Positions 7,793 through 50,679 of a stretch of DNA of 64,000 bases are shown here, one piece after another. Every line of letters begins with the position of its first letter. Positions within the stretch are counted from its first letter, which is position 1. The notes beneath the pieces were generated by a model, which was given only the letters and a program-made list of their open reading frames with translations, was not told the origin of the DNA and made no database searches. The position numbers and the translations under genes are program-made. The DNA comes from Chitinophaga pinensis (GTDB lineage Bacteria; Bacteroidota; Bacteroidia; UKL13-3), in NCBI GenBank assembly GCA_945898275.1, contig CAMDHZ010000010.1:1-64000 (forward strand), given 5' to 3'.

Positions 7793-8158
7793 ATGAATAA
7801 CATTAAAAATCATATCATATTAGTTTTTTTAAGTTTTTGTTTTGTTTCGGTTCAAGCCCAAACCCAAACCAATAAAGTAGTTACAGATACACTCACCGTT
7901 TTGGGCAATTGTGGGATGTGCAAATCGCGCATAGAGGCCGCCTTAGACGCTAAAGGCATTAAAGCTGCAGAATGGGACATTCAAACAAAATTATTGGTTG
8001 TTTCCTATGTGCCTTCAAAAATTTCTCTTGAGCAAATTAACCAATTGATAATTTCAGTTGGACATGATACCAATTCGAAAAAAGCCGAGGATGGCGTTTA
8101 CTCAACCTTACCTGGCTGTTGTAGGTTCAGAGAAAATCCAAATACGCACACCGACTAA
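7793..8158 (+). CDS. Periplasmic heavy-metal-associated (HMA) domain protein
   Basis: A 121-residue protein with a signal peptide (about 1-22, ending QAQ) and one HMA-like ferredoxin fold. The metal-binding C-x-x-C is Cys40/Cys43 in GNCGMCKSRIE. After the domain comes a short tail with an extra Cys pair (LPGCCRF). HMA domains bind Cu(I) or other soft metals. The stop codon overlaps the ATG of the downstream TonB-dependent receptor by one base (TAATG), which indicates translational coupling. Together with the preceding HYC_CC_PP protein and the receptor this makes a compact three-gene metal operon. Confidence 0.88.
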   Translation: MNNIKNHIILVFLSFCFVSVQAQTQTNKVVTDTLTVLGNCGMCKSRIEAALDAKGIKAAEWDIQTKLLVVSYVPSKISLEQINQLIISVGHDTNSKKAEDGVYSTLPGCCRFRENPNTHTD

Positions 8159-10419
8159 TGCGATTTTTATTTTTAGGGTTGTTGAGTATATTTTGTTTTA
8201 CAACATCATATGCTCAACAAACTGCTATGCTTAAAGGTGTAGTGGTGGAAACAACAAGTAAGGGTACCATTTCACCCATAGGCGGTGCCATTATCTATTG
8301 GAAGGGAACCTTTTCAGCCGTTAGCTCAGACAGTAATGGTACCTTTCAAATAGCTTTAAGTAAACTAAGTAGGCAGCTAGTTGTAATTGCTACAGGCTAC
8401 CAAACTGATACAATTTTTGTTAACGATACAAATAGTGTAAAGGTGCTATTGGTAAGCAAAACTCAATTGAGCGAAGCCCTTGTAACTTATGAGCGCAAGA
8501 GTTCTGAGGTTTCATTTATAGATCCTTGGAAAACTACGATTATGAATGAAAAGGAACTTTTTAAGGCAGCTTGTTGCAATTTAAGTGAAAGTTTCGAAAC
8601 TAATCCAAGTGTTGATGTTGCCTACGCCGACGCTCTAAGTGGAACAAAACAGCTTCAAATGTTAGGTTTGTCTGGACAGTACTTACAAGTTTCTATGGAG
8701 CAAATTCCAGGTTTAAGAAGCATTGCTAGTACAGCTGGATTGAACACCATTCCCGGTGCTTGGATAAATTCAATTCAGGTTTCAAAAGGAGTAGGTTCTG
8801 TTGTAAATGGTAGCGAAAGTATAAGCGGAATGCTTAATATAGAATTACATAAACCAGATGTGAAAGACAAATTACTTTTTAATGCCTATGCTGGGGAAGG
8901 TGGCCGATATGAATTAAATGCAGTTGTACCTAACAAAATTGGAGAAGGTTTTTCTCAATCTGTTTTGGCGCATGTTAATTTAACCTCATTACGCATGGAC
9001 AGAAACCAAGATGGTTACCTTGATAATCCATTGGGAAATCAAGTAAACTTAATGTATCGGTTCAAGATTGATACTAAAAAAAATTGGGTAATTAATGGCG
9101 CTATTCAAGGGGTTTCAGACAAGCGGTTTGGAGGAGAAAATAATTTTGATCCATCTGCTAATGTTGACGGTGATACACTTTCTCCTTATGGGATTCAAAC
9201 TTTAAATGAAAGAGTATATGCCTTTGGAAAAGTTGGATATGTATTTCCAAGAAAGAAATACAAAAGTGTTGGATTGCAACTTAATTATACCAATCAAAAA
9301 CTTTCCAATACTTATGGAATAACAAATTATGATGCAAAGCAAAATTGGTATTATGGAAATTTGATTTATCAGTCAATCATTAACAATACAAATCACCGCT
9401 TTAGAACAGGCATTACGTTTAGCAATGAAAATACAAATGAGGCTGTTTCCATTTTTAGATTGTTTTCTAATACAAGTCAATTCAAGAGAACAGAACAATT
9501 GCTAGGTGCCTATTTTGAATACACTTATACTTGGTATACTAAACTCACGGTAGTTGCAGGCTTAAGAGCAGACCATCATAATTTGTTTGGCAATTATTTC
9601 ACACCTCGACTGCATCTTAGATATGCACTAAATGAAGATTTTGTTTTAAGAGCTTCCGCAGGAAAAGGTTGGCGAACTGCAAACATTTTTGCTGAAAATA
9701 GTAGTTTGTTAATCAGTAGCAGAAAATTTAATTGGTTCAATACAAACTTAAACCAAGCAGCTTATGGTTTTAAGCCAGAAGAAGCATGGAATTATGGTTT
9801 GAACCTAACATATGACTTCAAACTAAATTATAGAAAAGGAACTTTTAGTGCTGATTATTATTTCACGCAATTTGCAAATAGAGTAATTGTAGACCGTGAT
9901 ATAAGTTTTGACGCAGTTTTGTTATACCAACAATTAGCATTTTCTTCAGGATTGCAATTGCAGTTAGATTATTCACCTCTTAGAAGATTGGATGTACGAA
10001 TAGCATATAGATTTTATGATGTTCAAAGTAAGTTTATACAAGGGTGGACCACAGATCCAATGCTTGCTAAGCATAGAGGATTTGTTAATCTAGCCTATCA
10101 AACAAAAAGCAAATGGGCTTTTGATTTTACATCAAACCTCATTGGTGCAAAAAGACTACCAAAAGCCTATGCTGTAACTTCAGAAAAACAAAGCTGGTCT
10201 GATTTTTCATTGCCCTTTTGGTTGTTTAATGCCCAAGTAACGAAAAGTTTTAAAAAGCGAGTAGATGTATATTTAGGATGTGAAAACTTATTTGATTTTA
10301 AACAGTTAAATCCAATAATTAATTCTGATAAACCTTATTCTGCTAATTTCGATGCAACCCTCATTTGGGGCCCTGTTTTTGGTAGGATGATTTATGGTGG
10401 AATACGTTGGCGGTTATAG
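8158..10419 (+). CDS. TonB-dependent receptor, metal-operon type
   Basis: A 753-residue outer-membrane receptor: signal peptide (about 1-19), a carboxypeptidase-regulatory-like beta-sandwich (about 20-105), a plug domain and a 22-strand barrel ending in an aromatic residue-rich strand (GGIRWRL). The plug begins with a paired-cysteine segment KAACCNLSESFE near residue 138, which is typical of receptors found with HMA-domain genes. The usual role is TonB-driven import of a metal or metal complex. Metal identity is not shown by the sequence; copper is the best guess from context. Start ATG overlaps the HMA gene stop. Confidence 0.88.
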   Translation: MRFLFLGLLSIFCFTTSYAQQTAMLKGVVVETTSKGTISPIGGAIIYWKGTFSAVSSDSNGTFQIALSKLSRQLVVIATGYQTDTIFVNDTNSVKVLLVSKTQLSEALVTYERKSSEVSFIDPWKTTIMNEKELFKAACCNLSESFETNPSVDVAYADALSGTKQLQMLGLSGQYLQVSMEQIPGLRSIASTAGLNTIPGAWINSIQVSKGVGSVVNGSESISGMLNIELHKPDVKDKLLFNAYAGEGGRYELNAVVPNKIGEGFSQSVLAHVNLTSLRMDRNQDGYLDNPLGNQVNLMYRFKIDTKKNWVINGAIQGVSDKRFGGENNFDPSANVDGDTLSPYGIQTLNERVYAFGKVGYVFPRKKYKSVGLQLNYTNQKLSNTYGITNYDAKQNWYYGNLIYQSIINNTNHRFRTGITFSNENTNEAVSIFRLFSNTSQFKRTEQLLGAYFEYTYTWYTKLTVVAGLRADHHNLFGNYFTPRLHLRYALNEDFVLRASAGKGWRTANIFAENSSLLISSRKFNWFNTNLNQAAYGFKPEEAWNYGLNLTYDFKLNYRKGTFSADYYFTQFANRVIVDRDISFDAVLLYQQLAFSSGLQLQLDYSPLRRLDVRIAYRFYDVQSKFIQGWTTDPMLAKHRGFVNLAYQTKSKWAFDFTSNLIGAKRLPKAYAVTSEKQSWSDFSLPFWLFNAQVTKSFKKRVDVYLGCENLFDFKQLNPIINSDKPYSANFDATLIWGPVFGRMIYGGIRWRL
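9796..9805. repeat. GGTTYRAACC motif copy 4 (GGTTTGAACC)
   Basis: Exact copy inside the metal-operon TonB-dependent receptor gene, read as Gly-Leu-Asn. Confidence 0.8.
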
Positions 10420-26173: not shown

Positions 26174-29100
26174 ATGTCAATGAAGAAAATATATACAATT
26201 TTATTTTGCATGCTGGTTCTAAATCTGGGTGCATTTGCTCAGAGTGGTTTAGGAACAATTCGCGGAACAATTAAGGATTCTAAGACCAAGAAGCCCTTAG
26301 ATTATGTAAGTATAACCGTTAAACTTAATGGTGTAGCCAAAGGTACAGCCATGACTGATGATGATGGTTCATACACCATTAAAACCTTGCAGCCAGGGCA
26401 ATACACACTATTCGCTTCCTATGTTGGGTACAAAAGCGTAGTAATGGAAGGAATTAATCTTGCTGCTGAAGAAGATAGGTTTGTTAATTTTTTAATGGAA
26501 TCAACTACTCAATTAAATGAGGTTGTAATTTCACAATATAAAAAGCCAAAGATTGATCCAGGTGGGGTTAAAGGTGGAAACATTGGAGGTAAGGAGTTAT
26601 TAAACAGTGGAACCCGCTCCGTAGAGCGTTTAACAGGCCAAACTTTAGGGGTAGAATCTAGAACTGGAAGCACTCCTATTTTTAGAGGTGCACGTGCCGA
26701 AGGTACTGCTTACTATATAGATGGAGTGCGTGTAGTTGGTGGTGGTCGCGATATTCCTGCCAATGCCATTGATAACATTCAAGTTATTACTGGTGGTACA
26801 CCAGCACAATATGGAGATTTTGTGGGTGGTGCTATTAGTATTACCACAAAAGCGCCTTCTAAAAATTTCATCAGAGCTTTAGAATATACATCTGCTTCAC
26901 CTTTCACAGGTACATTAGACAATACCCAATATAATAATTTCCAAGGCGTATTATCAGGGCCATTAAAGCTTGTTAACAAAGGAAGAGGAGATGAAGAACG
27001 CGTATTGTTAGGGTTTTTAATTTCTGGAAGTGTGGTCTATCAAAAGCAAATTGCCGTAGTGGATTTATACGAAGTTAAGCCAGAGAAATTAAAAGCAATT
27101 GAGCAAACACCATTGATACCAGGCGCTTCAGGTACCTTATTTCCAGCTGCAGAATATTTAACTGCAAATGATTTCCAAAAAATAAATAATCGACCTAATG
27201 TATACGACCTTGGAGCCGATGTAAATGGTAATTTCAATTTCCAACCAACTAAAAACTTCAATGTGCGTTTAGGCTACTTTGGAAACTACAGGCAAGGAAG
27301 AAATTGGAATAATTTCCATCATCTGTTAAATTCTTCAAATAATGCTTTTCAAAGAGATTATACTGTTAGAACTTATTTGCAGTTTACTCAAACCTTCAGG
27401 TCAGATGACAAAAAGGATAAAGACGATAAGAAACCTGCTTCAAATATTTCAAATGCATACTATTCAGTTCGTTTATCTTACGAGAGATTCTACAGAGAAC
27501 TTGAAGATCAGGAGCATAGGGATGACATTTTCAATTATGGTTATGTAGGTAAATTTACCTCTTATCAAGCACCGGCTTACCAAAGAGTAATTAAAGGTTT
27601 AAATGAAAGACCAGATTCATTTTTAGTGAACAATAACTATGTTTACCTTTCAGACTATTACCGTCAAATTGGATATCAAGATACTGCTTTTACCTTTGAA
27701 CAAGCTAATATAAATAGGGTTAGAGGAAATTATACCCGTTCGGTTTACGATTATTTTGGAGCCCAAAACATAGATAATTTAGGGGATCTTCGTCAAGTAG
27801 GAGGTTTAATTAATGGTGATAACCCTAATGGATTATACTCTAATATGTGGGGTAATGTTGGTGCTCAGCAAGCTGGATACCAAAAGACAATGGTAGAAAC
27901 CTTTAACTTATACATCCAAAGTGAATTTACAGTTGCACCAAAAGGTAATCCTAAAGCAAAACATGAAATACAGGTTGGTTTAAACTTTGAGCAGCGATTT
28001 TCCAGAAATTATTCTTTAGGGGCAACTGGTTTATGGGGTTTAATGAGGTTATATTCTAATCGTCAATTTGCTGGCTTAGATTCTAACAAATCTACACTTA
28101 GGTTTGATGAAAACGGGGTATTTAATGATACCGTTAACCTTGGTAGAAAAATTGTTTGGGCAGACCAAACCAATTTTGATAGAAATTTGAGAAATAAATT
28201 AATCGCCATGGGTAGCACAGATGCCTTTGGAAATCCAATTGATTCTAATTCTTTCCTAGATGTGAATTCTTATGCACCTTCGGTTTATTCATTAGATATG
28301 TTTAGTGCGGATGAATTACTAAATAATGGTAATTCTGCTGTTGGTTATAATGGGTATGACCATTTAGGAAACGTTATCCGCGGTCGCCGTGTAAGTTTAG
28401 ACGACTTTTTAAATGACAAGGAACGTCGTTTACTTCCTGCCTACCAACCAGTCTACTTTGCTGCTTGGATTCAAGATAAGTTTGTTTTCAAAGATTTGAT
28501 TATGCGTGTTGGTTTCCGTTTAGAACGTTTTGATGCGAACCAACCTGTATTAAAAGATCCTTATACAACTGTTCCAATCTACACAGTAGGTGAAGTTCGT
28601 AATTCTTCAGATGCAGCTATTAGTGCACTTGCCAATCAAATCCCAGGTAATGTTGATAATGGATTTGCTGTGTATGTTAATAAAGATGAAAATCAGCAAG
28701 TTGGAGGACTATCAAATTCAAAAATAGTTGGTTACCGTGATGGCAATCGTTGGTTCGATGGAAGTGGTAACCCAATTTCAGACCCTCAACAAATTGCCCG
28801 TGATGGTGGTACCAATCGTAATGTGCCATTGTTATTAGACCCAAGCAATCCAAATATTCCAACTAGCAAATCATTTACAGATTACACGCCAGATGTATTG
28901 TTATTGCCTCGTATTTGGTTCTCATTCCCAATTTCTACTACTTCTCAGTTTTTTGGTACTTATGATATCTTAGCGCAACGTCCAATTAACAATCAAGCAC
29001 AAATAGATGACTATTACTATTTGCAAAACAGACAGAGTTTAGGACCAATTGCTAACCCAGATTTGAAAATGGTTCAAGTAACCGATTATGAAATAGGTTT

Positions 29101-29965
29101 CCGCCAGCAAATTGGGGATGATGCAGCATTAGGTATTATTGCTTCATACAGAGAATATAGAAATTATGTACAGCAATTTAGATATGTACAAGCTTGGCCA
29201 ATTGATTATACCACTTTTGGTAACATCGATTTTGCTACTGTAAAAAGTGTGGGTATTGATTACAGTATTACTGATATTGGTAACATCACATTAAGTGCAA
29301 ATTATCAATTACAATTTGCAGATGGTACAGGTTCAAACGCTAACTCAAGTAATGCATTGGTTCAAGTTGGTTTAGGAACACTTCGTACAATTTTTCCATT
29401 AGACTTTGATACACGTCATACTTTAAAAGCAGTTTTTGATTACCATTATAAAACTGGAAAAGATTACAATGGACCAATTGTTAACGGTAAAAAGATTTTT
29501 GAAAATGCTGGTTTCAATGTAAACTTCGCTGGATATTCGGGAAGTCCTTACACACAAGAATTAAATCCTACACCAGGTGGTGTTCAAAGTGGTGTGGTTG
29601 TTCGTAGTCCTATAAGAGGTACAATCAATGGTGCGAATATTCCTCCTCAATTTACAGTTGATTTGAACGTAGATAAAAACTATGTTTTTAAAAGTAAGAA
29701 AATAGATGGCTCTACAGTAAATTATAGATTAAGGGTTTTTATAATGGTTCAGAATTTACTTAATACTGCTAATATTACTTCAGTGTTTAGGTATACAGGT
29801 TCTGCTTACACAGATGGATTCTTGGCTTCACCAGCTGCACAAGAACAAATTGAGTCTGCAACCAATACCCAGTCATATATTGACTTATACAATATCAGGA
29901 TGGTTAACCCAGATCGTTTTGCTTTACCTAGAACCGCAAGACTTGGAGCTGCCCTATATTTCTAA
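26174..29965 (+). CDS. Large TonB-dependent receptor-like protein of a T9SS-linked cassette
   Basis: A 1263-residue outer-membrane protein: signal peptide (about 1-23), carboxypeptidase-regulatory-like domain (about 26-115), then a plug-like domain (about 120-230) with TPIFRGARAEGTAYYIDGVR and IQVITGGTPAQYGDFVGGAI, then a very long barrel with extended loops. The barrel is about 250-400 residues larger than classic siderophore receptors. It is not a typical SusC protein because no SusD follows. Instead it is followed, 23 bp later, by a giant secreted protein and then a PorV/PorQ-family barrel. Function is unknown; it may anchor or export the neighbouring secreted protein. The start may be ATG 26180 instead. 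Confidence 0.82.
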   Translation: MSMKKIYTILFCMLVLNLGAFAQSGLGTIRGTIKDSKTKKPLDYVSITVKLNGVAKGTAMTDDDGSYTIKTLQPGQYTLFASYVGYKSVVMEGINLAAEEDRFVNFLMESTTQLNEVVISQYKKPKIDPGGVKGGNIGGKELLNSGTRSVERLTGQTLGVESRTGSTPIFRGARAEGTAYYIDGVRVVGGGRDIPANAIDNIQVITGGTPAQYGDFVGGAISITTKAPSKNFIRALEYTSASPFTGTLDNTQYNNFQGVLSGPLKLVNKGRGDEERVLLGFLISGSVVYQKQIAVVDLYEVKPEKLKAIEQTPLIPGASGTLFPAAEYLTANDFQKINNRPNVYDLGADVNGNFNFQPTKNFNVRLGYFGNYRQGRNWNNFHHLLNSSNNAFQRDYTVRTYLQFTQTFRSDDKKDKDDKKPASNISNAYYSVRLSYERFYRELEDQEHRDDIFNYGYVGKFTSYQAPAYQRVIKGLNERPDSFLVNNNYVYLSDYYRQIGYQDTAFTFEQANINRVRGNYTRSVYDYFGAQNIDNLGDLRQVGGLINGDNPNGLYSNMWGNVGAQQAGYQKTMVETFNLYIQSEFTVAPKGNPKAKHEIQVGLNFEQRFSRNYSLGATGLWGLMRLYSNRQFAGLDSNKSTLRFDENGVFNDTVNLGRKIVWADQTNFDRNLRNKLIAMGSTDAFGNPIDSNSFLDVNSYAPSVYSLDMFSADELLNNGNSAVGYNGYDHLGNVIRGRRVSLDDFLNDKERRLLPAYQPVYFAAWIQDKFVFKDLIMRVGFRLERFDANQPVLKDPYTTVPIYTVGEVRNSSDAAISALANQIPGNVDNGFAVYVNKDENQQVGGLSNSKIVGYRDGNRWFDGSGNPISDPQQIARDGGTNRNVPLLLDPSNPNIPTSKSFTDYTPDVLLLPRIWFSFPISTTSQFFGTYDILAQRPINNQAQIDDYYYLQNRQSLGPIANPDLKMVQVTDYEIGFRQQIGDDAALGIIASYREYRNYVQQFRYVQAWPIDYTTFGNIDFATVKSVGIDYSITDIGNITLSANYQLQFADGTGSNANSSNALVQVGLGTLRTIFPLDFDTRHTLKAVFDYHYKTGKDYNGPIVNGKKIFENAGFNVNFAGYSGSPYTQELNPTPGGVQSGVVVRSPIRGTINGANIPPQFTVDLNVDKNYVFKSKKIDGSTVNYRLRVFIMVQNLLNTANITSVFRYTGSAYTDGFLASPAAQEQIESATNTQSYIDLYNIRMVNPDRFALPRTARLGAALYF

Positions 29966-29988
29966 GACAATTTAATTAAACGATTATC

Positions 29989-32900
29989 ATGAAAAAGAAT
30001 AGTGTAACATTAATCAATTGGTTGAAAGCAGCCTTGCTGCTAACACTCTTATTTGGTTTTCAATTTGTGCAAGCAAGAGAAAACATCGGGTTGCAAAAGT
30101 CAGGTAAAAAACCTGCCCTGAAGAAATATGGTGCAGGTTGTGTAGCCGCTACGCAACAAAAGGATTTAGATTTAAATAACGTTCGTACCACCATTTTAAA
30201 TGGCGGTGATGTTTGGTGGAATCTTCAAAATGCCAAATATGAAATACCTAAAGTAGAACCAGGAAATACTCCTAAACATTCACTTTTCTCTGGAGCATTG
30301 TGGATTGGTGGTGTAACTTTAGGGAACTTAAGAATTGCTGCTCAAACTTACCGCCAAAGTGGTAATGATTATTATCCTGGCGCTTTGGCAACCGATGGAT
30401 CGGCTTCCATTACTGCTGATCGTTGTAAATTTTATGACAAAATTTGGAAAATTACCTTAGCAGAGATTGAGGCTTTTGCAATTGATACCCAAAATTGGGC
30501 AAATCCAATAGATGCCATCGCAACTTGGCCAGGAACTGGCGCTGAGGGTTTTTCAGAAGCACAGTTTTTAGCGCCTTATTTTGACGCGGATTCAAATGGT
30601 GTTTACGAGCCTGCAGCAGGAGATTTTCCAACTTTTGATCAGGATGAATTATCCAATATTCCTGATATGATGTTGTATACTATTTACAACGATAAGGGAA
30701 ATATTCACTCAGAATCTGAAGGTTTACCATTAGGCTTAGAGTTGCATACACAAAGTTTTGCATTTTCTACGAGTGATGAAATTAACAACATGACCTTTTA
30801 TAGAACTACTATTTATAATAGAAGCTCAGACATTATAGACTCCTGTGTTTTTGGCCAATGGGTGGATGCCGATTTAGGAAATTATGCAGATGATTATGTA
30901 GAATGTGATGTGCAACGTAATCTAGGTATTTGTTATAATGGAGATGATAATGATGAAGGTATTTTAGGTTATGGTTTGAACCCACCAAGCATTGGGGTAA
31001 ACTTTTTTGAAGGTCCTAAGAAAATTGTAGGTGCAGATACAATAGAAATTGGTTTAACCAAATTTGTATATTACAATAATGACTTTTCTATAACAGGTAA
31101 TCCTCAAAGACCAGAGCATTATTGGAATTACCTAAATGGTAGATGGAAGGATGGTTTAAGTATCACTTATGGTGGAAATGGTAGAGGTGGAACAGATACT
31201 GCTAGTTTCATGTTTCCTGGTTTATCTGACCCAGCGGGAAGAGAAAATTGGACAGAAAGAACTGCTGGAAATACGCCACAAGACAGAAGGTTTTTACAAG
31301 TTTCTGGACCCTTCAGTTTGTTGCCTGGTTCAAAAAATGAAGTAACTGTTGCTGTAGTTTGGGCAAGAGCCACTACTGGTGGAGCAACTGGTTCATTCAA
31401 TTTGTTAAAAGAAGCAAGTGATAAGGCGTTCGTTTTATTCAAAAATAATTTTAAAATTTTGGATGGACCTCGTGTTCCAGATATGAAGATTGTAGAATTA
31501 GATAGGGAGTTAATCCTTACCATAGACAATTACGGTAGAACAGAATCTTACTCAGATTCGTCAGCTGGATTATGCACCCAGTTTACCAGATATAAATTTC
31601 AAGGGTATCAAATTTTTCAATTAAAAAGAAGTTCAATACCAAGTGATTTATACAATCAAGATGAAGCAAAATTAGTTGCACAATGTGATGTTCAGGATGG
31701 TAATAAAATGATTGTTAATATTGTAAATGACGCTGATTTGGGAAGTGTAAAAAAGATAATGGTAAATGGAGCAGATGATGGAATTGAACATTCTTTCAGA
31801 ATAACCAAAGATGCATTTTCTATTGAATCTGATCCAACCTTGGTGAATTTCCAAAGTTATTACTTCCTGTTAGTTGCATATGCTGCTACAGACAATTGTT
31901 CTCAAGATGCTTTACAATATTTACAAGGTAGAAAATTGGTTAATGGAGATCCAATAGTTGTTTATACTGCTTATCCTCACAAACCAATTTCTAGAGGTAC
32001 AGGCACCGATTTAAATGCTAGCTTTGGGGATGGTCCTGAAATCACAAAAATTAGTGGAATAGGAAATGATGCTAATGTCTTAAGATTAACTAAAGCAACC
32101 ATTGAAAAAGCTTTATTAGCACCTTATTATGCTCCTACACCAACTTATACTTCTGCTTCTGGTCCTATAAAAGTTCGTGTAATTGATCCTTTTAAGCTTC
32201 CATTATCAGATTTTGAATTGAGATTTAAAGATAGTTCAAACTCAACTGTTAAAGGAGATACTTTAACAGGAAGTTCCACCTATTGGACTTTGACCGACCT
32301 TACTAATGGGACGGTTTACAATGGAGAGCGTACAATTAACTCGCCAAACGAACAAGTATTCTCAGATTTAGGTTTTTCTATTTCTGTAAGCCAAGTAATT
32401 GGACCAGGACAGCCTACCAACCAATTGGATCAAGACAATGGTTATGTTAGTTCATCAATCAGTTTTTCAAATCCTACCAATCGTTGGTTTAGAGGTATAA
32501 ATGATGAAATAATTGCTTTACCACCTTTTAATTGGATTAGATCTGGAAATACTGGTACTCCAACTTTTGATAGACCTTGGGAACATGACTTCGCTGTTAA
32601 CCGCGTGCCAGTTGACCCTAGAAGACAATATAATAAAGTTTTAGACGGAACTTGGGCACCATATTGCCTAGCGGCTAGTGCTGTTGCTCCAACTGCTGTT
32701 ACTTATGGTCCAGCTTGGAGCCCAACAGGCGATGGTAAATTCCCTTCTCAAGACCATTCACTTGCCGATTTGCAAAGCGTGCAATTAGTAATTACTGCGG
32801 ATAAATCTAAATGGTCTCGTTGTATTGTGTTGGAAGCAGGTGAAAATGCCGCAACAAATATTGGCGGTGCTCAAAAGTTTGACAGAAGAAGATCTCCTTC

Positions 32901-33828
32901 GGTAGGTAAAAATGGTAAACCAGATGGCGATGGTAACGGTAAAAGTTGGTTCCCTGGATATGCTATTAATAAGGAAACTGGCGAACGTTTAAATATTTTG
33001 TTTGCAGAAGACTCTTCTCTACCGCTAGACAATGGTTCGGATATGATTTGGAACCCTACTTCTACATTGTTCCGTCAAAATCCAACTTCTGGTATTGAGT
33101 ATATATTCGGCGGAAAACACCATGTATATATTATGGGTACAAAGAGATTGGTTACTAATCCAAACAGAGTTGGACCTAGATACGATGAGTGTAAACTTTA
33201 TGATTCACTTTTCAACCTAATTGATAATAATGTTCAAGTGCCTTCTAATAGAAGAAATATTTTCAAACAACCAATGTGGGTGGGTATGACATTAACAGAC
33301 CCTAAAACACAATTGGGTAACTTGAATGACAATGGTGGCGGTATCCCTTGTGAGGTAACTATAGATATCAATGTTAAGCGTCCTTATGCTCAGAAATTCT
33401 CTTTTGATCCTTCAGTTGCAGATACAAGTGGAATGCCTTTGTATAGATTCTCTACTAAGAATCTTGCACCAGTGGTTGGTAATTCAGAAACTATGAAAAC
33501 AGCGCTTGACTTGGTTTCAATCACACCAAATCCATATTATGCTTATGCTGGTTACGAAGACCCAACCAACCAATTGGATACTCGTATAAAAATAATTAAC
33601 CTGCCAAAGAAATGTGTTATTTCAATTTATACACAAGGTGGTTATTTGGTGAGAAGAATCAGAAAGGATGATGATTCTAGAACCTTTGTAGAATGGGATT
33701 TAAAGAATGATGCTAATGTGCCTATTTCTAGTGGTGTTTATTTAATACATGTTTACGCAGATGGCATGGGTGAGCGAATCATCAAATGGTTTGGTATCAT
33801 GAGACCTGTGGATTTTGATACTTTCTAA
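29989..33828 (+). CDS. Giant secreted protein, probable T9SS cargo
   Basis: A 1279-residue exported protein with a long signal peptide (about 1-30). After an RTTILNGGDVWWNLQNAKYE segment it continues with the Bacteroidota pattern SLFSGALWIGGVTLGN and AAQTYRQSGNDYYPG, which I recognise as a conserved family of large uncharacterised surface proteins. The last 90 residues (from SITPNPYYAYAGYE to IIKWFGIMRPVDFDTF) form an Ig-like C-terminal fold with the pattern P-N-P...G-x-Y-x-I-x-V, similar to T9SS sorting or FlgD-like domains. No enzyme motif is evident. One GGTTTGAACC motif is at 30973. It is probably presented on the surface with the receptor before it and the PorV-like protein after it. Confidence 0.75.
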   Translation: MKKNSVTLINWLKAALLLTLLFGFQFVQARENIGLQKSGKKPALKKYGAGCVAATQQKDLDLNNVRTTILNGGDVWWNLQNAKYEIPKVEPGNTPKHSLFSGALWIGGVTLGNLRIAAQTYRQSGNDYYPGALATDGSASITADRCKFYDKIWKITLAEIEAFAIDTQNWANPIDAIATWPGTGAEGFSEAQFLAPYFDADSNGVYEPAAGDFPTFDQDELSNIPDMMLYTIYNDKGNIHSESEGLPLGLELHTQSFAFSTSDEINNMTFYRTTIYNRSSDIIDSCVFGQWVDADLGNYADDYVECDVQRNLGICYNGDDNDEGILGYGLNPPSIGVNFFEGPKKIVGADTIEIGLTKFVYYNNDFSITGNPQRPEHYWNYLNGRWKDGLSITYGGNGRGGTDTASFMFPGLSDPAGRENWTERTAGNTPQDRRFLQVSGPFSLLPGSKNEVTVAVVWARATTGGATGSFNLLKEASDKAFVLFKNNFKILDGPRVPDMKIVELDRELILTIDNYGRTESYSDSSAGLCTQFTRYKFQGYQIFQLKRSSIPSDLYNQDEAKLVAQCDVQDGNKMIVNIVNDADLGSVKKIMVNGADDGIEHSFRITKDAFSIESDPTLVNFQSYYFLLVAYAATDNCSQDALQYLQGRKLVNGDPIVVYTAYPHKPISRGTGTDLNASFGDGPEITKISGIGNDANVLRLTKATIEKALLAPYYAPTPTYTSASGPIKVRVIDPFKLPLSDFELRFKDSSNSTVKGDTLTGSSTYWTLTDLTNGTVYNGERTINSPNEQVFSDLGFSISVSQVIGPGQPTNQLDQDNGYVSSSISFSNPTNRWFRGINDEIIALPPFNWIRSGNTGTPTFDRPWEHDFAVNRVPVDPRRQYNKVLDGTWAPYCLAASAVAPTAVTYGPAWSPTGDGKFPSQDHSLADLQSVQLVITADKSKWSRCIVLEAGENAATNIGGAQKFDRRRSPSVGKNGKPDGDGNGKSWFPGYAINKETGERLNILFAEDSSLPLDNGSDMIWNPTSTLFRQNPTSGIEYIFGGKHHVYIMGTKRLVTNPNRVGPRYDECKLYDSLFNLIDNNVQVPSNRRNIFKQPMWVGMTLTDPKTQLGNLNDNGGGIPCEVTIDINVKRPYAQKFSFDPSVADTSGMPLYRFSTKNLAPVVGNSETMKTALDLVSITPNPYYAYAGYEDPTNQLDTRIKIINLPKKCVISIYTQGGYLVRRIRKDDDSRTFVEWDLKNDANVPISSGVYLIHVYADGMGERIIKWFGIMRPVDFDTF
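30973..30982. repeat. GGTTYRAACC motif copy 12 (GGTTTGAACC)
   Basis: Exact copy in the giant secreted protein gene, read as Gly-Leu-Asn-Pro. This is the only copy in the 8.8-kb surface cassette. Confidence 0.8.
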
Positions 33829-33838
33829 TAATAGTTAG

Positions 33839-33866
33839 TCTGGAGGTTTTTAACCTCCAGATTTTT
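33839..33866 (+). terminator. Intrinsic terminator between the secreted protein and the PorV-like gene
   Basis: TCTGGAGGTT (33839-33848), a 3-base loop and AACCTCCAGA (33852-33861) form a perfect 10-bp stem followed by TTTTT (33862-33866). It lies 11 bp after the secreted-protein stop and 20 bp before the PorV-like start. It would partly separate expression of the third cassette gene from the first two, or act as a processing hairpin. Confidence 0.8.
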
Positions 33867-33885
33867 AAAAAATAAAATTAACAAG

Positions 33886-35016
33886 ATGAAAAGAACGCTA
33901 TACAAAATTGGAATTGGGATGATGCTTCTGGTATCCTCTCAAGCATTTGCCGGAAATCCAGATAGATCTGGAGGAGCGGGTGCCACCCAACTTACTGTTA
34001 ATCCATATGCCCGCTCAGCTGGTTATGGGGGTATTAACACAGCTTCTGTTAGAGGACTCGAGTCCTTCAATTTAAATATTGCTGGTTTAGCTTATGCGCC
34101 AAGTACAGAGGTTGTTTTTTCTAGAATGGCATTTCTACAAGGCTCTGGAGTTAATATCAATAATTTTGGTTTGGCTCAACAGGTAGGAGAAAATGGTGAA
34201 GGTGGGGTTATTGGATTAGGTTTTGCAAGTTGGGATTTTGGCGATATTCCTATCACTACTTACAGCAATCCAGATGGTACTTTACCTAGTTTTAGCCCTC
34301 AAGTTCTAAACGTTTCTGCTGCTTATGCGCGTAAATTCTCTAACAGTATCACTGGTGGATTTTTATTAAGAATTGTTTCTGAAGGTATTCAAGATGTAAA
34401 AGCACAGGGTGTGGCATTTGATTTTGGTGTACAATATCAAACTAACTTAAATCCGAAAAGACCGAACGCAAAAATTAAGAAGGAGGATTTTAGATTAGGT
34501 ATTTCTATGCGTAATATCGGAAGCGATTTAAGGTACGAAGGTGCTGGTTTATCTTTCCGCGCTATCAACCAATCTACTGGGGCAGATAGAAAAGCCTTGT
34601 TTGCAGCTGATAAATTTAACTTGCCAACACTCGTAAATATTGGTTTAGCTTATGATATTAAGTTAGACCAAAGCAAAGATGTATATAACCATAAGGTAAC
34701 TACTTCCTTTAACTTTAACTACAATGCTTTCCAATCTAATGTTTATGGCTTAGGGGCAGAATATTCCTACAAAAACATGTTTATGCTGAGAACTGGATAC
34801 AATTATATTGGTGAAGAAAAGGCATTTAAAGATGATGCTACTAATCCAACTTATAATTCTCCAGTTTATGGAATATGGACAGGCTTTACCTTTCAATTGC
34901 CTGTTTCTAAATCAGGAACTGCATTTGCCTTGGATTATGCTTATGCGCCAACCAGATTTTTCAGTGGCATGCATGTGGTGGGTGTCAAATTAACTATTGG
35001 AAGTAAAAAGGGATAA
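33886..35016 (+). CDS. PorV/PorQ-family outer-membrane protein
   Basis: A 376-residue beta-barrel protein with a signal peptide (about 1-22) and the family opening ...GGAGATQLTVNPYARSAGYGGINTA..., followed by LESFNLNIAGLAYAP. PorV is the T9SS shuttle that receives cargo proteins at the outer membrane, and PorQ is a related T9SS accessory. This gene is a paralogue-type member that follows a probable T9SS cargo gene, so it may be a dedicated outer-membrane partner. It is not adjacent to porU, which argues against it being the housekeeping PorV. A strong terminator follows at 35041-35073. Confidence 0.8.
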   Translation: MKRTLYKIGIGMMLLVSSQAFAGNPDRSGGAGATQLTVNPYARSAGYGGINTASVRGLESFNLNIAGLAYAPSTEVVFSRMAFLQGSGVNINNFGLAQQVGENGEGGVIGLGFASWDFGDIPITTYSNPDGTLPSFSPQVLNVSAAYARKFSNSITGGFLLRIVSEGIQDVKAQGVAFDFGVQYQTNLNPKRPNAKIKKEDFRLGISMRNIGSDLRYEGAGLSFRAINQSTGADRKALFAADKFNLPTLVNIGLAYDIKLDQSKDVYNHKVTTSFNFNYNAFQSNVYGLGAEYSYKNMFMLRTGYNYIGEEKAFKDDATNPTYNSPVYGIWTGFTFQLPVSKSGTAFALDYAYAPTRFFSGMHVVGVKLTIGSKKG

Positions 35017-35040: not shown

Positions 35041-35078
35041 AGAAACGTTCCACTGCTCAAGTGGAACGTTTCTTTTTA
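35041..35078 (+). terminator. Intrinsic terminator after the PorV-like gene
   Basis: AGAAACGTTCCACT (35041-35054) and AGTGGAACGTTTCT (35060-35073) form a perfect 14-bp stem with a 5-base loop, followed by a T-rich tail. It ends the surface cassette. The greA start is only 23 bp further on, so greA either has a promoter overlapping this hairpin or depends on readthrough. Confidence 0.88.
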
Positions 35079-47631: not shown

Positions 47632-50600
47632 ATGAAACAATTGTTTTTCACCCTTTCCTTTTTGGTATTTGTCTCACTGCCCTTAAGGGCCCAAGTTTTA
47701 CAAACCATAGCAGGAATGAATGGGGATGGTGGATTGGCAAAAGATGCGGCAATTAATGAAACAAATGGACTTGCGATTAATGAGGCTGGAGATATTTATA
47801 TTTCTGACAGAGCAGTTTCTGTTATAAGAAAAATTTCTGCAAAAACTGGAATCATTACTACCATTGTTGGTAATGGAGTAGCAGGCTATTCTGGTGATGG
47901 TGGGCAAGCGAGATTAGCCAGCTTAAATCAGCCAGGGGATATCGTGCTTGATCGTGCGGGTAATTTATACATTGCTGATGTAATGAATTATAGGGTAAGA
48001 AAAGTAGATGTAATTACTGGAATGATTACAACCATAATAGGAAATGGAATTTACGGAAATTCTGGAGATAATGGGCTTGCCACAATGGCTAATATTGGAA
48101 TAATAAATCAACTTGCCATAGATAATGAAGGAAATATTTTTTTCGGAGGTTCAGGAGTGCGAAAGTACAATGCTTCTAACGGCATCATTACCAAAATATA
48201 TTCTGAACATGTGAATGGGATAGCTGCCGATAATAAAGGAAATTTATTTTTATGTTCAAACTCAAATTATATTTTGAAACTCTCCCTTAGTACAGGATTG
48301 GCAGGCATCTTTTATAATTCATCAACTTCTGGAAATATTAATAAATTGGCAATAGACAGTTTAGGGAATCTATTTATGTTGTTTAATTTGAGTGGCAAAT
48401 TACCACAAGTAGGAAAGTTGGGAAATAATGCAGAAAATTTCATGGTTATTGCTGGTGATGGTAACTTTGACTTTAGTGGAGATGGCGGTTTAGCTAGGTT
48501 TGCTGGTATTGGGAATTGCACCGAATTAGCCTTAGATGTAAATGCTAATTTATTTATTGGTGATGTTGGTTTTTATAGATTGAGAAAAATTAGCGCAGGT
48601 TCGGAAATGATCAATACCATTGCTGGCAATGGATGTTATGGAGGAGATGGAAATGCTGCTGAATCTTCATTTTTAAGTAACCCCTCTAATGTTGAAGTTG
48701 ATTTATGGGGTAATATTTTTATTGCTGATGCCAATAATCATAGAATTCGCAGAATTGATGCCCTCACAGGTATTATTACAACAGTTGCGGGCAATGGAAA
48801 AGGTGGGTTTAATGGGGATAGTATCTTAGCAACTAACGCTATGTTATTTCTACCAACAGACATTGTTGTAGACCAATTTGGAAATATTTTTATTGCTGAT
48901 GCAGCAAATCATCGAATTAGGAAAGTTGATGCTTCCTCAGGGGTAATAACAACCATTGCTGGTAATGGCTTAGCAGGCTTTTCTGGCGATAATTTAGAGG
49001 CGAAGAATGCCAAACTAAACAATCCTTATAATATATGTTTGGATACAAATGGGAACATTTATATTTCAGACCGAGAAAATCATCGCATTAGAAAAGTTGC
49101 AATTGCATCTGGTATTATTAGTACTATTGCTGGTAATGGTATCCCGGGATTTAGTGGTGATAGCGGTTTGGCTAATCTTGCGAAAATAGCTCGACCTATG
49201 GGTTTAGATATTGATTCGAACGGAAATATTTTCTTTGCGGATGATGAAAAAAGAATTAGAAAAATTGATGCGGGTTCAAATATAATATACACTATAGCTG
49301 GCAGTGGAGGATTAAATTTTAATGGAGACACTATTAATGCATTAAATGCCAACCTTAATTTTACCTATCTTACGCTTAATAAGTATGGTGATATCCTTTT
49401 AAATTCTCATAATAGAATTAGAAAAGTAGCTTCAAATACAGGAATTATTACCACGGTGGCTGGAAATGGTGCCCGAGGTTACAGTGATGAGGTTGAAGAT
49501 ATAGCTGCTGGTTTAGGTGGAGTGCGTGGAATCGCAATCGATACTAAAGGAAACATATTTTTCGCCGAATCACCTTTCAACCGCCTACGTAAGATCAGCT
49601 ATCAAAACGAATTTATTATTTGGAGCAGCACTTTGTTGCCCAAAAGGGAGGACACAGTAACGCTTTATACCAGCTACCAAGATTCGGCAAGTTATTTTGA
49701 ATGGAATGTTAGCCCCAATACGTTTTCATACATCATGGGAACCAACGCCAACTCGGGTCAACCCAAAATAAGGTTTAACAAAATGGGATTGTATAGCATT
49801 CAATTAAAGCTTGTATATAAGGGTGATACTTTAACCAAAACAAGACTTCACTATCTTAATGTTTTGAACCCATTGTTGCAAAACTTAGACTTTACTGCCA
49901 ACAAAATCAATCCGTCTTATTTGGATACCCTATCATTGGATTTGATGTTTAATGATACCGCAGAGCACATCCAATGGACGATAAGTCCCAATACCTTTAA
50001 TTTTGTTGAAGGCACCAACCAAACGCTTAGGCAACCAAAGCTTAGGTTTAGCCAAAAAGGTTTGTACACGGTACAGGTAGCAGTAGCTTATAAAGGCGAT
50101 ACACTTATTAAAACCAAAACCAATTATATTTCAGTTGGCAGTCCGCCCTTTCCACCACTGAGTTTTACGAGCAATAATCAGCTGCCAAAAATAGGAGATA
50201 CGGTAACCTTAGTTCCGCAGTTTTCGGATAGTATTTTGTTTTACCGATGGACAATTACCCCAGAACAGTTTAGTTATTTGCCTGGCGCTAATTCTAGTTC
50301 GGCTTCCCCGCAAATATCATTTACAGGGATAGATCAATATTATGATGTTACCCTGCAGATTGGGTATTATTTAGATACAATCAGCATAAGCAAAAAGAAG
50401 TTTTTTTATGTATCAAAACCCAATGGCGTGGAGCAATTAGCGCGACATGCCTATTTGGTTTATCCAAATCCAAGCTCAGGAATAATAACTATAGAAAGCA
50501 ATGGTCAACAATACCCAATACTTTGCGAGGTATGGGATGCAACAGGGAAGTTGCAAGCAAGCCATATGTTAATTCTTCATCAAACAGAGTTAACCCTTCC

Positions 50601-50679
50601 AGAACCCCAAGGGCTTTACCTTTTACAAATTAAAGATGCCGAGGGACGTGTTGCTAAGATGAAAGTCATTAAAGAGTAA
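47632..50679 (+). CDS. NHL-repeat secreted protein with T9SS type A sorting domain
   Basis: A 1015-residue secreted protein: signal peptide (about 1-20), then about ten NHL-like beta-propeller repeats up to about residue 640, each with a pattern like IAGNGxxGFSGDxGxAxxAxLxxP and GNIFIADxxNHRIRKVD. Three Ig/PKD-like repeats follow (about 650-920), each containing a DTVTL-like strand and a W-x-I-x-P-x-x-F-x-Y/F segment. The last 75 residues are a T9SS type A sorting domain (YPNPSSGIITIES ... GLYLLQI ... KMKVIKE), so it should be exported by T9SS and attached to the surface or released. Its substrate or ligand is unknown. Confidence 0.88.
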   Translation: MKQLFFTLSFLVFVSLPLRAQVLQTIAGMNGDGGLAKDAAINETNGLAINEAGDIYISDRAVSVIRKISAKTGIITTIVGNGVAGYSGDGGQARLASLNQPGDIVLDRAGNLYIADVMNYRVRKVDVITGMITTIIGNGIYGNSGDNGLATMANIGIINQLAIDNEGNIFFGGSGVRKYNASNGIITKIYSEHVNGIAADNKGNLFLCSNSNYILKLSLSTGLAGIFYNSSTSGNINKLAIDSLGNLFMLFNLSGKLPQVGKLGNNAENFMVIAGDGNFDFSGDGGLARFAGIGNCTELALDVNANLFIGDVGFYRLRKISAGSEMINTIAGNGCYGGDGNAAESSFLSNPSNVEVDLWGNIFIADANNHRIRRIDALTGIITTVAGNGKGGFNGDSILATNAMLFLPTDIVVDQFGNIFIADAANHRIRKVDASSGVITTIAGNGLAGFSGDNLEAKNAKLNNPYNICLDTNGNIYISDRENHRIRKVAIASGIISTIAGNGIPGFSGDSGLANLAKIARPMGLDIDSNGNIFFADDEKRIRKIDAGSNIIYTIAGSGGLNFNGDTINALNANLNFTYLTLNKYGDILLNSHNRIRKVASNTGIITTVAGNGARGYSDEVEDIAAGLGGVRGIAIDTKGNIFFAESPFNRLRKISYQNEFIIWSSTLLPKREDTVTLYTSYQDSASYFEWNVSPNTFSYIMGTNANSGQPKIRFNKMGLYSIQLKLVYKGDTLTKTRLHYLNVLNPLLQNLDFTANKINPSYLDTLSLDLMFNDTAEHIQWTISPNTFNFVEGTNQTLRQPKLRFSQKGLYTVQVAVAYKGDTLIKTKTNYISVGSPPFPPLSFTSNNQLPKIGDTVTLVPQFSDSILFYRWTITPEQFSYLPGANSSSASPQISFTGIDQYYDVTLQIGYYLDTISISKKKFFYVSKPNGVEQLARHAYLVYPNPSSGIITIESNGQQYPILCEVWDATGKLQASHMLILHQTELTLPEPQGLYLLQIKDAEGRVAKMKVIKE

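Follow-up and report, generated by a model that had tools for sequence, protein, structure and literature searches.

A conserved gene trio of Bacteroidota encodes a TonB-dependent receptor, a T9SS cargo and a PorV/PorQ-family barrel that may form a surface complex

We analyzed a 64,000-nucleotide stretch of DNA (the window), in which three complete open reading frames are arranged in tandem on the + strand, in the order TonB-dependent receptor (TBDR), secreted T9SS cargo and PorV/PorQ-family barrel. The intergenic gaps are 23 bp (TBDR-cargo) and 57 bp (cargo-barrel). The initial annotation had assigned the three products to these families from the sequence alone, and it named them correctly, as Pfam, NF033709, the profiles of the C-terminal domain (CTD) and the predicted folds agree. 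The features of the locus are as follows.

26174..29965, + strand: TonB-dependent receptor (TBDR), 1263 aa (Pfam; AF2 model; genome profile search)
26258..26530, + strand: CarboxypepD_reg-like N-terminal domain of the TBDR, residues 29-119 (Pfam; segment conservation)
26513-26530, + strand: TonB-box-like LNEVVI, residues 114-119, at the end of the CarboxypepD_reg-like domain
26582..26830, + strand: TonB receptor plug domain, residues 137-219 (PF07715, 2.2e-7)
29989..33828, + strand: T9SS cargo, 1279 aa, secreted (ORF; Pfam; AF2 model)
30139..31461, + strand: N-terminal domain of the cargo, about residues 51-491, predicted beta-supersandwich (VIA-align)
33478..33825, + strand: T9SS type A-like CTD of the cargo, residues 1164-1279 (PorZ CTD 8e-4; family matches)
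33784..33825, + strand: conserved C-terminal tail of the cargo, KWFGIMRPVDFDTF, the last 14 residues, mostly past the point where type A CTDs usually stop
33886..35016, + strand: PorV/PorQ-family outer-membrane barrel, 376 aa, of its own clade (NF033709; tree)
35041..35073, + strand: predicted intrinsic terminator between the trio and greA (14-bp stem and T run, -22 kcal/mol, z -8.5)

The neighborhood of the TBDR gene consists of genes for a 2-hydroxyacid dehydrogenase, the cargo, the barrel, greA and HIT. The terminator at 35041-35073 closes the trio 80 bp before greA, and in most trios the 90 bases 3' of the barrel gene fold strongly (median -23.0 kcal/mol compared with -12.1 kcal/mol for shuffled sequences). 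Given this strong terminator and the folding after the third gene, the trio appears to be transcribed as a separate unit. A further hairpin, CTGGAGGTTTTTAACCTCCAG followed by ATTTTT (-16.9 kcal/mol), is located at 33837-33864 in the cargo-barrel gap, where partial termination could reduce expression of the barrel. This hairpin is not general; folding at or below -8 kcal/mol was found in 24/80 cargo-barrel gaps. It is seen in some close relatives and not in most trios.

The TBDR comprises a signal peptide, a CarboxypepD_reg domain, a plug and a barrel, most likely with very large extracellular loops, and its Pfam matches over cut-off were CarbopepD_reg_2 (3.8e-17) and Plug (2.2e-7). The LNEVVI segment of the window protein is placed as in SusC; the segment is degenerate in part of the relatives. 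An AlphaFold (AF2) model of residues 110-1263 (pLDDT 86.4, pTM 0.82) aligned with TonB-dependent transporters over both plug and barrel, best with FecA (Z 37.6, rmsd 3.5, 568 residues), and further fold matches included BtuB, FusA and XusA. That is, the predicted fold is that of a true TBDR, with plug and transmembrane barrel. Because approximately 570 of the 1154 modeled residues align, about half of the protein is extra, most likely in the outer loops. In the genome profile search, the protein was the sole full-length member of its subfamily (1609 bits; next 154 bits). The receptor had been described as lacking SusD, and indeed no SusD-like gene adjoins it; its direct neighbors are the cargo and 2-hydroxyacid dehydrogenase genes. 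A separate TonB-dependent receptor of ordinary size (753 aa), without an obvious partner, is encoded at window positions 8158-10419.

The cargo bears a signal peptide without a lipobox, indicating that it is a non-lipoprotein, and no Pfam domain exceeded the cut-off in its body. In the AF2 model of residues 45-1164 (pLDDT 87.8, pTM 0.72), VIA-align matched the N-terminal domain (Z up to 18.7, rmsd 3.2, 253 residues) to the fold that GH94, GH65 and GH116 enzymes show in their N-terminal, non-catalytic domain. After residue 491 the model is almost all beta, with short helices only, and the (alpha/alpha)6 catalytic barrel of these enzymes appears to be missing from it. Since the region in which a helical catalytic barrel would be expected is almost all beta, the cargo is probably not a GH94/GH65/GH116-type enzyme. 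Sugar binding by the N-terminal domain is only a lead from the model, and the shared fold by itself does not establish glycan binding. We also considered a SusD-like cargo and set it aside; the fold search gave no such match, its matches all falling in one domain and barely probing residues about 495-1164. The cargo profile had no match among PDB sequences, and no relatives of the cargo were found in viral contigs. A family of T9SS proteins of 528-1289 aa at other loci (L086, L088, L089, L091 and L092) has only the supersandwich N-terminal domain in common with the cargo and carries ordinary type A CTDs. The window itself encodes a second T9SS protein at 47632-50679, with NHL/teneurin-type propeller repeats and a Por_Secre_tail CTD over cut-off.

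We compared the CTD of 20 diverse cargo members with CTD profiles at E<=0.01. The PorZ profile matched 16/20 members, TIGR04183 14/20 and PorU 3/20, and some cargo relatives exceeded the 23-bit cut-off of TIGR04183, whereas the window cargo did not; its own CTD matches were weak (PorZ 8e-4, FlgD_ig 0.056). The type B profile (TIGR04131) matched none of the 20, although it does match the real type B proteins of the genome. Profile comparison thus puts the cargo CTD apparently closest to that of PorZ, a non-cleaved CTD; PorZ and PorU are T9SS substrates with uncleaved CTDs (PMC10202324, PMC11285876). In the cargo relatives, the TIGR04183 alignment stops at model position 60-62 of 72, leaving 20-22 residues, whereas two ordinary type A proteins compared with the same model end where the model ends. 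About 10 conserved residues therefore lie past the usual CTD end, i.e., the cargo, unlike type A cargo, does not stop with the CTD fold. In 125 trios the tail reads ...GEKxxKWFGVMRPxDLDSF or, in other classes, is a related tail.

The CTD variant tracks the presence of a private barrel, because proteins away from any trio that share only the N-terminal domain have ordinary type A CTDs with the usual end and no tail, while the stand-alone full-length cargo paralogues (8-9, with no receptor or barrel adjoining) retain the special CTD and tail. At least five of these paralogues occur in genomes with a trio elsewhere (paralogue and trio at L034/L033, L051/L083, L075/L074, L082/L049 and L155/L140). 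This association is the best evidence, at the level of sequence, that cargo and barrel recognize each other as a cognate pair.

The barrel scored 126.7 bits against NF033709, the PorV/PorQ family (cut-off 90), and 20/20 members matched this profile. It fell far under the equivalog cut-offs for PorV (NF033710, 63 of 250 bits) and PorQ (NF033711, 58 of 220 bits) and is not a PorVQ2 (NF052325, 20 bits; cut-off 325); a weak PorP match was found in 2/20 members. A tree of 85 sequences placed the trio barrels from all classes in one clade (support 100/98), apart from PorV and PorQ. The genome has five members of the family, i.e., a canonical PorV beside PorU, PorQ, PorVQ2, an unassigned one and the trio barrel, and the sampled trio genomes generally retain PorV and PorQ too. 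The description of the barrel as a dedicated paralogue is therefore borne out by its linkage and its separate clade, besides the PorV and PorQ of the genome. The PorVQ2 gene lies at G000:C17:47226-48197 (L240 7206-8276) and scores 427.7 bits against the cut-off of 325, so that at least four PorV/PorQ subfamilies occur in one genome. The unassigned barrel, at G000:C6:124630-125526 (L090 9619-10647), reached 182.9 bits for the family, stayed under all named subfamily cut-offs and adjoins a lipoprotein-like 419-aa gene.

The proposal that the three families belong together held across Bacteroidota. In 117/128 distinct full-length cargo loci, the TBDR gene lies upstream and the barrel gene downstream on the same strand, with median gaps of 24 and 32 bp; the loci that carry names are all from uncultured Bacteroidota MAGs. 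The cargo was found in 74/78 relatives, across most sampled families of the class. Among 392 sampled genomes of the phylum, the cargo profile was found in 101, the barrel profile in 119 and both in 100 (odds ratio 1432), so that cargo and barrel occur together in 100/101 cargo genomes. The barrel exceeded its threshold without a cargo match in 19 genomes, part of which may reflect threshold effects. A chance or hitch-hiking linkage has nothing in its favor beyond vertical inheritance of the greA-HIT neighborhood, as greA and HIT usually follow the trio within the class; outside class Bacteroidia, however, greA-HIT is gone and the trio is kept. The survival of the order in changed surroundings, its recurrence at so many loci and the all-or-none presence of the genes refute such a linkage, to which we give practically no credence. 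As the order is kept in 117 of the distinct cargo loci, it is not chance, and its spread across much of Bacteroidota points to a surface machine and not to a peculiarity of one locus.

Tree distances among TBDR, cargo and barrel correlated at 0.90-0.94. After the greA distance was removed, the correlations were 0.75 for TBDR-cargo, 0.68 for TBDR-barrel and 0.43 for cargo-barrel; the last is the lowest and, with fine-scale shared history uncontrolled, is weak evidence. The common locus contributes to these values, so the co-divergence of the three proteins is support, not proof. If the genes were merely co-regulated neighbors, with the cargo acting as a free extracellular binding protein outside any physical complex, their co-transcription, which holds in all likelihood, would be explained equally. 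However, divergence that is correlated beyond greA, together with the strict order throughout the phylum, favors contact, and we consider this explanation improbable.

SprA was present in 101/101 cargo genomes compared with 319/392 overall (hypergeometric 2e-11, kinship ignored), and the genome carries SprA, PorU, PorV and PorQ outside the trio locus. The cargo thus occurs only in SprA genomes while the general machinery is encoded elsewhere, and for this reason export most likely uses the common translocon, and the shuttle/anchor step alone is private. The initial annotation had suggested a self-contained export system, which these data do not support. The same dependence on SprA fits a role in building the envelope. 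The trio would then assist the T9SS or outer-membrane assembly, and the TBDR would serve not uptake but the export, folding or modification of surface proteins, by supplying TonB energy or a place to dock. The single-copy, deeply conserved state of the trio within the class and its nearest pairs, PorU/PorV and PorZ/PorQ, which are T9SS machinery, agree with this role. However, among 99 SprA-positive genomes of the same class, all three genes were found in 8 and none in 91, implying that the trio is not required, and it is multi-copy, even tandem, in other classes (L222, L224), as expected for receptors with different ligands. We regard an envelope-building role as rather unlikely.

Cognate pairs in which the shuttle gene lies directly downstream of the cargo gene are proven for type B CTDs; the shuttle is of the PorP/SprF type and the cargo stays bound to it (PMC12618676, PMC9143113). 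In addition, PorV retains PorU, and PorQ retains PorZ, with the CTDs uncleaved (PMC10202324). Following this logic of type B/PorP-SprF, PorU/PorV and PorZ/PorQ, we infer that the cargo leaves via SprA and is taken and kept by its own barrel. We propose that the cargo would first use Sec and next the common T9SS translocon, SprA, to which its type A-like CTD would guide it, and that the PorV-family barrel encoded downstream would collect it. The barrel, as a putative cognate shuttle and anchor, would keep the uncleaved CTD and the extra tail, so that the giant cargo stays at the surface. There it may lie on the TBDR's large outer loops, or next to them, and present a ligand for TonB-driven uptake; judging by the fold of the N-terminal domain, this ligand could be glycan-like or macromolecular. 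In its working, the trio as a whole would resemble a SusCD-type receptor, with a T9SS product taking the place of the lipoprotein at the surface. By analogy drawn from genetics and fold, TBDR and cargo most likely cooperate in the manner of SusC and SusD. A cargo with its own barrel is a known pattern, to which the trio adds a receptor.

We give the whole reading, in which the trio is a transcription unit for a surface complex of a T9SS-exported cargo held by its own barrel and working with the TBDR, a probability of about 0.5; the shuttle/anchor part taken alone deserves more confidence than this. The stand-alone cargo paralogues, the genomes with only the barrel and the weak CTD match of the window cargo count against the whole reading. 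Type A cargo have so far all been reported to use the shared PorV (PMC12618676), which counts against a private barrel. Alternatively, the barrel might take over the cargo at SprA and bring it to the attachment complex without forming a lasting complex; PorU would cleave the CTD, the cargo would be released or fixed to LPS, and the TBDR would import what the cargo yields without binding it. This would be the ordinary type A route in the cited work, and PorU, PorV and PorQ are present in the genome. However, PorV already serves type A cargo, so that the conservation of a private barrel calls for an explanation, and the cargo CTD is closest to that of the uncleaved PorZ and bears an extra tail. 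We consider transient shuttling of this kind unlikely but worth weighing.

The proposed surface complex shares features with several known systems. As in the PorU/PorV and PorZ/PorQ pairs of the T9SS attachment complex, a T9SS-exported surface protein would keep its CTD in a PorV/PorQ-family barrel; in the trio, however, the cargo has no sortase or PorZ body, the barrel belongs to a different clade and the unit includes a TBDR. SprB/SprF and further type B cargo that use a PorP/SprF shuttle likewise have the gene of their own barrel directly after the cargo gene, whereas the trio has a type A-like CTD, with no TIGR04131, and a barrel of the PorV/PorQ and not the PorP/SprF family. SusCD, BtuB-BtuG and XusA-XusB resemble the trio in the TBDR beside a large surface partner, the CarboxypepD_reg domain and the very large outer loops; they differ in that the trio partner is a T9SS cargo with a CTD and not a lipoprotein, that SusD is lacking and that a second, PorV-type barrel is present. 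The system of PorVQ2 and an inactivated M6-type T9SS protein (NCBIfam NF052325, NF052323) also has a PorV-family paralogue suspected of serving its own cargo, but the trio barrel is of a different subfamily, and a PorVQ2 is encoded separately, at C17 of the genome. The Bacteroidota BAM accessory complex (BamG-K, BamM, BamP) was weighed for its FadL-like and surface parts; the papers on it (PMC12578637, PMC12611786) describe no trio of TBDR, T9SS cargo and PorV. We found no earlier description of the trio in the open-licence papers searched.

We hypothesize that such trios make up a class of receptor complexes built through the T9SS and spread over the phylum, each with a TBDR, an extracellular partner whose type A-like CTD is permanently retained and a private PorV-clade barrel as membrane anchor; this wider claim is tentative, at somewhat less than even odds. 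If it is true, PorU/PorV and PorZ/PorQ would be followed by a third anchored pair, type A-like cargo would have its first private shuttle, SusCD would gain a counterpart free of lipoprotein, and T9SS export and TonB-dependent uptake would be joined in one complex. Why some CTDs escape cleavage is an open question (PMC11285876, PMC10202324), on which the trio family bears. A large natural family that combines a type A-like CTD variant and a conserved tail with its own PorV-clade barrel makes CTD-shuttle specificity and retention testable by swaps. In other classes the trios are also found in tandem or expanded form (the whole of L222; L224 4660-19501), with two cargo-receptor sets side by side or a trio with two more cargo genes, which suggests diversification for several ligands.
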